Source: Pegea sp. RAD2-039
Lineage: Eukaryota; Chordata; Thaliacea; Salpida; Salpidae
NCBI GenBank assembly: GCA_034620365.1
Contig: JAQGEQ010000064.1
Coordinates: 270,155-334,154, forward strand
Length of the DNA stretch: 64,000 nucleotides
Direction: 5' to 3'
The first letter of the stretch is position 1. Each line of letters opens with the position of its first letter. Under the pieces are notes generated by a model. It made no database searches. It was given only the letters and a program-made list of their open reading frames with translations, and had not been told where the DNA came from. This document shows positions 29,070-32,000 of the stretch, piece after piece. Both the position numbers and the translations under genes were made by a program.

Positions 29070-32000
29070 CTACCAACCAACACTGCTTTCTTTGTTGTAA
29101 AAAAAACTGTCATCTTCAAATGTATCTGATTCTAAATCAGCTAAAACTTCATCTGCTTTCACTAAAGTCTTCTCAAATCCTTGATCTATTGATGGATCTT
29201 CAAGTATTCGAAACTTACCTTCGACGTAATTTCGAGCAAACCATTTAAGGAATTCGTCAATTAGAATAACAGGAAGTGAAATTTTCAACACCACCATCCA
29301 CTCATTAAAACTCAAAGGGCATATTTGAAAAATCACCTGGAAGATTAAAGATAAAGTCCTGAAGATGAGGATGATTTAAGACTTACTGGTAAGGGTTCGA
29401 CGTGTAAGATCATAAAATGCAGACTCATAGAAAGCATGATTGAACCGATTAACCACATATTCTGCCACGGTGGCATTCGTAGAAGAGATTGGTTCTCAGA
29501 TACACTGAAATTAGTCTGAAGTTAAATAATGATTTGAGATTTGATCTTAGAAACCTGTTCAGAGCATTCAACATCTCAATTGTGACAAGAACAGAAAGAG
29601 CCATTGTCATTGGATGAGGATCTTCAAATATTTTGCAAGATAATCCTTCAAAAAGCTCTGGGTTTGTAGAACATTGCATATAATGAGTCTAAAAGAAAAA
29701 GAGATTTAATTGAAAGATGTCGCGATTAAATAATCTCATGCTTTGGAAGACACATGCAAATTAAACAGATTTTAATTTAAAGTAAAAAATAAAGTTGATT
29801 AGAGAAATACTAAATAAAAAGTTGAGCGCTTTTCGAATTATTTGGTCGAGTAACTAACCAACTGCCACCAGGACATGGACGGTCCAGTTTGTGCGTACAA
29901 GAACCACCAAGAAGCAGATGCCACAGTTGCTATGCCAACATAAGCTGTGGCGGATGTGCAAAAAAAAAAGTTGGTCAAAAAACGAAATAAATAAAAATGA
30001 TTTGGTTTTGTGGGTTGGTTTGTTGCTGGTCGACAACGCTCTGTTTTGTTTCAAGTATTTTAAGAGCTTTTTTCATATCGATTTGAAACAAATTTTTTTT
30101 GTTGTATCAATTTAATTGGAATTTAATTTTGAATAATTGATTAGATAACCACAAAGCAAACTGCATGCAAAGAAATTAGCTTCTTCAGTTGCTATTTCAG
30201 CTAATTTCTAATTGATTTCAAAGAAGTAAAAAAGAAATAAAAAGAAACCAGAAAATAAAGAAGACAGACAGACAGAGAAGTGTTCTTCAACAAAACCATT
30301 TTCTGATCTTATAACTAACCAATTGCCACCATGAAACCATTGGGCCATCCGGACTATACATTAACCACCAAATAGAAGCTGCTACAGTTGAAGAACCAAC
30401 AAACACTAAATGAAACAACAAATTAGCCACTTTAAAGTTGACTAACCAGTTGCCGAGACCAACAAAACCGACCCACAAACTAAGTAACCATGGAAACGAA
30501 CGTACCTCCGACGACACAGTAACGTAACATTAACCAGGGACTGATAAGACTTTCTTTTGGTGAACGCGGAGGTTTATCCATCACATCTAAATCCGCTGGA
30601 TTGAAACTAAGAGCAGTAGCGGGTAGACCATCAGTTACCAAGTTGACCCACAGTAATTGGACAGGTATTAAAGCCTCTGGGACACCCAGGGCGGCGGCCA
30701 GGAAAATACTGAAGATATGTCTTGAGAGGATTGAAAAATTGGATTGATGAAAACTTACCAAACAACTTCTCCGATATTTGAAGATATTAAATAACGAATA
30801 AATTGTTTCATGTTATTGTAAATTGCTCGACCTTCTTCAACAGCGGCTACAATCGAAGTGAAGTTATCATCTGCTAGAACCATATCAGAAGCACTCTTAG
30901 CAACAGCGGTTCCACTCCCCATCGCGATACCGATCTCAGCCTTTTTCAGGGCTGGTGCATCGTTGACACCATCTCCTGTCTGTTAGTGTTGATGTTAGAT
31001 GAGGTTTGAGGTGGTTGTTGTGGTTACCATAGCTGTGATGTCATCATTGGTTTGGAGGTATTCGACGATTTTGCTTTTGTGAGCGGGTTCGACGCGCGCA
31101 AAGAGACGGGCTCGAAGACACGCAGCAAATTGTTCATCTGAAGAAAGCTGATCGAACTCGCGACCAGTGTAAGAAAGTCCTAAAAGATGAAGATCATATT
31201 AAGAAGATGAAGATCATGAGATGATGAAGATCATGAGAAGATGAAGATCATGAGAAGATGAAGATCATGAGATGATGAAGATCATGAGAAGATGATGAAG
31301 ATCATGAGAAGATGATGAAGATCATGAGAAGATGATGAAGATCATATTAAGAAGATGAAGATCATGAGATGATGAAGATCATGAGAAGATGAAGATCATG
31401 AGAAGATGAAGATCATGAGAAGATGATGAAGATCATGAGAAGATGATGAAGATCATGAGAAGATGATGAAGATCATGAGAAGATGAAGATTATATTAAGA
31501 TAATGAAGATCATATTAAGAAGATGAAGATCATGAGAAGATGAAGATCATGAGAAGATGATGAACACTTACCATTTGTATCTTCATTTTCACCGAAAACT
31601 CCGATTCGTCGACAAATCGCTTCAGCAGTCGACTTATTATCACCAGTGATGACAATAACACGGATTCCAGCTTTCCTACAATCTTCAATCGCTTGAAAGA
31701 CTTCAGAACGCGGAGGATCTAACATTCCAACCACACCAACAAAAGTGATATCGCTCTACAGAACACATACGTCACAAATCACTCGTCACGCTCTACCAAA
31801 CATCCTAACCTCGTATTGAGCGAACTTAGTCGAGTCACTAAGGTTCATATCATCTGGGGCGGACGGAAAGTCGACTGTTCCGAGAGCTAAACATCTCAAA
31901 GTATCTCTTCCTGTTCCATATTCCTTCACTTTTTCAAGAATCGTTCTCCGCAAACTCGCCGTCAACGGCACGCGTTTGTCTCCTAATCTGACGTGCGTCG

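Follow-up and report, generated by a model that had tools for sequence, protein, structure and literature searches.

Does the SERCA gene described here encode one calcium pump or two? SERCA genes give rise to several, often tissue-specific, pumps by splicing, according to the available text of PMC3527596. In the window (the whole 64,000-nt stretch of a salp contig that was analysed) the minus strand carries a SERCA gene in which two successive exons, A and B, encode versions of the same protein segment. We consider it likely that A and B form a mutually exclusive pair, yielding two pumps with an inferred choice mechanism and protein effect, and that their duplication is probably old. The segment has 29 residues and spans the luminal part of M7 together with the first half of the loop L7-8; the two pump forms would differ at 14 of these residues and be the same elsewhere.

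One SERCA locus found, with two exons for one segment

When the exons of the gene are joined, a protein of 1001 amino acids is obtained with A or with B (Table 1). It has all of the motifs DKTGT, TGES, PEGLP (in M4), NIGE (in M5) and NLVTDG (in M6), which we take to be hallmarks of SERCA (P2A Ca2+-ATPase), and is 66-96% identical to the matches listed (the best 120 of 7,991). Read-through of an optional C-terminal donor would give 1037 residues, with an extra tail that is polar and acidic as judged by eye; this tail is absent from P0001 and P0002, the two transcript-like sequences discussed below.

Translated searches of the 105.7-Mb assembly, with the best candidates scored, found one SERCA locus, and both a window-derived C-terminal query and a Ciona SERCA1-like protein match its contig, JAQGEQ010000064.1. 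A second SERCA gene was considered and rejected, as the remaining loci in the whole-genome translated searches are at most 60% identical and resemble other P-type ATPases. Further alternative exons, and duplications elsewhere in the gene, were likewise rejected: two whole-genome translated searches, with only the best candidates scored, found A and B for the segment and, for the other exons that they reached, no second copy on the same contig.

The locus and its surroundings contain several repeats. Intron 14 (31184-31564) is nearly all minisatellite, a 17-20 bp unit being repeated about 20 times. Tandem arrays elsewhere in the window lie at 24744-25746 (77 copies of a 13-bp unit, CACTGTCCCAGGT), at 52742-53732 (71 copies of a 14-bp unit, TCTGTAGATGAAGA, with 96% matches) and at 63155-64000, where an array with a 113-bp unit reaches the window end.

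Table 1. Coordinates of the SERCA gene, its alternative exons and candidate splicing elements in the window.
Feature	Position	Strand	Basis or remark
SERCA gene, complete	35847-28970	-	Frame joined across exons, GT..AG splice sites
17 common exons before the switch, ATG at 35847	30506..35847	-	Single open frame, GT..AG; agrees with P0001 end to end
Intron 17, 100 nt, before exon A	30406..30505	-	3' end retained in P0002
Left arm of predicted stem looping out A	30443..30480	-	Pairs with 30042-30006: 31 pairs, -38.9 kcal/mol
Alternative exon A, 86 nt, 29 residues	30320..30405	-	In P0002 joined to the 29688 exon, B skipped
TGCATG about 150 nt past A, in the intron that separates A from B	30164..30169	-	Motif scan
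Right arm of predicted stem, upstream of B acceptor	30006..30042	-	Pairs with 30480-30443
Alternative exon B, 86 nt, 29 residues	29859..29944	-	Counterpart between common exons in P0001
TGCATG in intron after B, about 100 nt after B	29753..29758	-	Motif scan
First common exon past the switch (remainder of L7-8, and M8)	29555..29688	-	After B in P0001, after A in P0002
Common exon	29387..29504	-	Joined frame
Common exon, terminates at optional C-terminal donor	29219..29336	-	Joined frame
Possible read-through C-terminal extension, +36 residues	29070..29218	-	Open frame; not in P0001 or P0002
Final coding exon (41 nt) with the spliced C-terminus VGDGALEVGKKNN	28970..29010	-	Matching VGDGTAEVGKKNN ends both P0001 and P0002

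The first-pass annotation had described A and B as equal in length, phase and donor, with about 15 of 29 residues identical and a reading frame that breaks when both are included, and this description holds throughout. Both exons are 86 nt long. Exon 17 ends at 30506 and leaves one base of a codon, so that A and B both enter in phase 1; both leave in phase 0 and have the donor GTTAGT. They share 15 of 29 residues, as counted by eye from the translations, and 54 of 86 nt. With both exons included the first stop follows after 869 codons, and with neither after 849 codons; a full-length pump must therefore take A or B. Chance likeness of the two is ruled out by their matches to solved SERCA1a and by a match within the genome. 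Stretches of 81 residues, of which 52 flanking residues are common to both, match SERCA1a with an E value of 5.5e-31 when they contain B and 1.9e-29 when they contain A, and a B-form query in a translated search of the 105.7-Mb genome found exon A at E 6.4e-5. A and B are confirmed to be homologous neighbours that agree in length, phase and splice sites.

How the exons are used can be read in part from two public sequences. P0001 is a contiguous ORF of 1001 aa, found on contigs no longer than 4020 nt, with B between the common exons; because an ORF of 1001 residues fits contigs of this size, its source must be spliced RNA or a copy free of introns. P0001 is identical to the window protein at 991 of 1001 residues, the other 10 being different. 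P0002 is a 173-residue ORF on a 4139-nt contig, in which A leads directly to THYMQC and on to the spliced tail, B being skipped. It opens with VANLLFHL, which is the translation of the last bases of intron 17 in the window. B alone is thus found in P0001 and A without B in P0002, and neither has both, in agreement with the one-or-other use proposed earlier; A and B are each present in an apparently spliced public sequence. Of the splice junctions that such a pair predicts, both B junctions are seen in P0001 and 30320/29688 in P0002, in protein letters only. The junction of exon 17 to A (30506/30405) is not seen in P0001 or P0002, the latter of which keeps the end of intron 17, and we infer that A is productively included.

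P0002 has four differences from the window, three of which are common to P0001 (residues 960, 993 and 994). By these common substitutions, P0001 and P0002 belong to one species or nearly so, and this species, judged by its sequences, is a very close relative of the window species. Both are representatives of clusters (7 and 2 members, respectively). As the clusters were formed at 90% identity, the 7-member cluster of P0001 may conceal a complete A isoform. No relatives of P0002 were found among viral contigs. Compared with the window, exon A has 1 residue of 28 changed in P0002, and exon B has 4 of 29 changed in P0001. In the latter comparison exon B is a local hot spot, with 4/29 differences vs 6/972 elsewhere (Fisher P 1e-4). 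The idea that P0001 carries a third exon, 4/29 off window B, was rejected, as the genome searches (best candidates scored) contain no such exon.

Tunicate relatives and age of the duplication

Among the best 120 of 7,991 matches, the nearest named full-length SERCAs are those of tunicates, Ciona and Clavelina. A sturgeon sequence (P0003) has a higher score but was rejected as the nearest, being a repeated, concatenated model. A tree of 52 sequences (the window protein, P0001 and 50 of the other 120 proteins) was constructed without the A/B segment. Here, the window groups with P0001, P0008, P0010 and P0014, and this group adjoins a Ciona protein labelled 'SERCA 2-like isoform X2' (P0015) and a Clavelina 'isoform X1' (P0021), which are sisters with a support of 0.73. 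In the same tree the SERCA sequences of Ciona, of Clavelina and of Styela each fall on separate branches. P0034, P0053 and P0094 represent a SERCA paralog branch with Styela and Molgula sequences and have A-like AS[IV]WWL segments.

The segments of the two neighbouring proteins resemble different members of the pair. That of Clavelina X1 is B-like, with 24 of 29 residues identical to window B, and that of Ciona X2 is A-like, with 16 of 29 residues identical to A and 12 of 29 to B. Since B is closer to Clavelina X1 (24/29) than to A (15/29), the duplication would be old, unless A has evolved faster. The label 'isoform X2' hints at a sister isoform X1 in Ciona.

Alternatively, the A-like segment of Ciona X2 might be an ordinary exon that diverged independently, with the exon pair being private to the window lineage. 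We regard this as a serious competitor, although with less than an even chance of being correct. Outside the segment the Ciona gene is the sister of Clavelina X1, whose segment is B-like, which argues against a private pair, and when eight trees of the segment (29 columns) were compared, the three best grouped A with Ciona X2. In the best of these, A and Ciona X2 stand with the stolidobranch paralogs, apart from the B clade. Independent divergence gains some credit from trees T3, T5 and T8, which lack the group of A and Ciona X2 and have AU p values of 0.08-0.15, and from the presence of ASIWW also in P0034 (Styela) and P0094. It is helped further by the two trees with a recent duplication in the window lineage (T1 and T2): their AU p values are 0.012 and 0.0045, but they pass the other tests (KH p 0.08, SH p 0.11). 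A recent duplication of A and B is thus disfavoured by AU, without KH or SH, on 29 columns of sequence, and the duplication is probably old within tunicates.

Long protein models of Ciona savignyi were rejected as cases of extra exons, as their insertions resemble retained introns. The insertion in one of them (P0037) lies exactly after residue 836, which only suggests a common intron position.

The A/B segment and the probable use of exon A

By alignment, the A/B segment corresponds to residues 842-870 of rabbit SERCA1a; it begins one residue past G841, and G845 is kept. Some 14-16 of its residues form the end of M7, and the remaining 13-15 form the start of L7-8. The earlier assignment to TM7 and L7-8 therefore stands for the luminal portion of M7 and half of the loop, the first, but not for the whole of M7. 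In the available text of PMC7313052, TM7 is placed at 831-855 and TM8 at 895-915, and a glycine motif of TM7 packs against TM5; the glycines are numbered 841, 844 and 845 there vs 841, 842 and 845 in the aligned SERCA1a chain. In an AlphaFold model of P0001 (mean pLDDT 68, pTM 0.40, with block means of 81-87 over residues 831-870) the M7 helix is predicted at window residues 826-852, the segment being 837-865.

It had also been suggested that the switch lies where the luminal tail of SERCA2b docks. This idea is not directly transferable to the present gene, as neither predicted C-terminus resembles an eleventh transmembrane helix when judged by eye. The eleventh helix and luminal tail of a SERCA2b-type long form were not found; the spliced tail is short and ends in VGDGALEVGKKNN.

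Conservation of the segment was determined over the other 119 SERCAs among the best 120 of 7,991 matches, a set that contains some fragments and poor models. In nine of its columns conservation reaches 95% or more, and of these B keeps all nine and A eight. The exception is Y843, present in 119/119 of the SERCAs listed, where A has F. Only 1 of the 14 differences between A and B thus falls within the nine conserved columns (hypergeometric P = 0.0095). On these sequences, B is the more canonical copy.

These data also bear on whether A gives rise to a pump. If A were an unproductive (poison) choice, A transcripts would keep intron 17 and be degraded or truncated, and A would serve only to lower SERCA output. 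P0002, the lone A-containing sequence, does retain the end of intron 17, and the frame of exon 17 meets a stop about nine codons into intron 17 of the window. However, a poison exon needs no constraint of the kind seen in A, which is intact and SERCA-like, has eight of the nine conserved columns and is only one residue in 28 off P0002; in addition, a full-length Ciona protein carries an A-like segment. An unproductive role for A is, on balance, unlikely. Even less probable is that A is a relic of exon duplication seen through low-level noise splicing, with B doing all the work: the complete set of conserved columns in B and the F of A at the invariant Y843 would fit, but the frame and splice sites of A are intact, P0002 splices past B, and an apparent age greater than the Clavelina split (if rates are similar) would be long for an unused exon to stay intact.

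Candidate choice mechanism and known systems

Introns 17 and 18 contain complementary arms that are predicted to form a stem looping out A. Of 1000 dinucleotide shuffles, 3 attain this degree of complementarity (z 3.75). Among the 21 pairs of adjacent introns in the gene this z is the highest, followed by 1.85. The pairing of introns 17-19 and 18-19 was equalled by 791 and 301 of 1000 shuffles, respectively, and the fold of the whole 817-nt region gave a z of -1.9 (20 shuffles). With 21 pairs compared and the signal found after looking, the predicted stem is suggestive rather than firm. The introns of the gene, 3786 nt in total, also contain TGCATG (UGCAUG in RNA), which is presumably an Rbfox-type motif, at just two sites. 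Of the four minus-strand TGCATG sites in the window, two fall after A and after B (P 0.0002-0.002, depending on background), an enrichment found after looking, with five motif patterns tried.

For a mutually exclusive pair the following scheme might apply. B would be the default, canonical form. Introns 17 and 18 would pair in the predicted stem, so that A forms a loop and exon 17 comes to lie near B, and the Rbfox-type sites may help to shift the balance between A and B, the choice probably being set by tissue or life stage. The switch would change the packing of M7 and the luminal loop, and thereby pump kinetics or luminal partners. The complete combination of an ancient tunicate duplication, a choice by stem and Rbfox, and one gene doing what other tunicates do with several SERCA genes is more tentative than the exon pair as such, and we put it forward as conceivable rather than probable.

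If this is true, SERCA diversity would have a second axis, internal to the protein, in addition to that at the C-terminus. Known isoforms vary chiefly at the C-terminal end, which makes the contribution of M7 and L7-8 to transport hard to isolate. Two natural pumps differing only in M7/L7-8 would offer a ready test of how the packing of M7 and the luminal loop determine Ca2+ affinity, turnover or the binding of luminal partners. Such a pair would further be an example, in a chordate, of exon duplication taking the place of gene duplication in the Ca2+ handling of muscle.

The proposed choice would resemble docking-selector systems, in which an element that follows a constitutive exon pairs with another in front of a later alternative exon, so that the exon in the middle is looped out. 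Pairing of a docking site with selector sequences in Dscam-type mutually exclusive splicing was reportedly described by Graveley in 2005. By analogy, the stem predicted here would loop out A in a similar manner; the present case has two exons and one predicted pairing.

Among known SERCA isoforms (SERCA1a/b, 2a/b and 3a-f, as well as those of Artemia and C. elegans) switching takes place at the C-terminal end. The likeness to the present gene is that one gene makes several pumps; the difference is that, unlike in SERCA1a/b, 2a/b and 3a-f, two homologous exons here would exchange an internal membrane segment. No description of exon choice at M7/L7-8 was found in the literature on SERCA, tunicates and P-type ATPase splicing, judged by titles, and the available text of PMC7397655 and PMC13423992 does not mention such a switch. 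As no listed title describes it, the A/B switch is apparently an undescribed form of SERCA variation, mutually exclusive exons themselves being already known.

Muscle myosin heavy chain offers a parallel. According to the available text of PMC3912159, it is encoded either by one gene with exclusive exons or by sets of genes, and Ciona is named for the latter. Its exon clusters are, like A and B, duplicated homologous exons in a muscle gene; they belong to a motor protein of arthropods and other groups, whereas the gene described here encodes a tunicate ion pump. Recent duplications of tunicate SERCA genes are stated in the available text of PMC3527596. The multiple SERCA genes of other tunicates also vary in M7/L7-8, but this variation lies between genes, whereas here one gene was found, with two exons.
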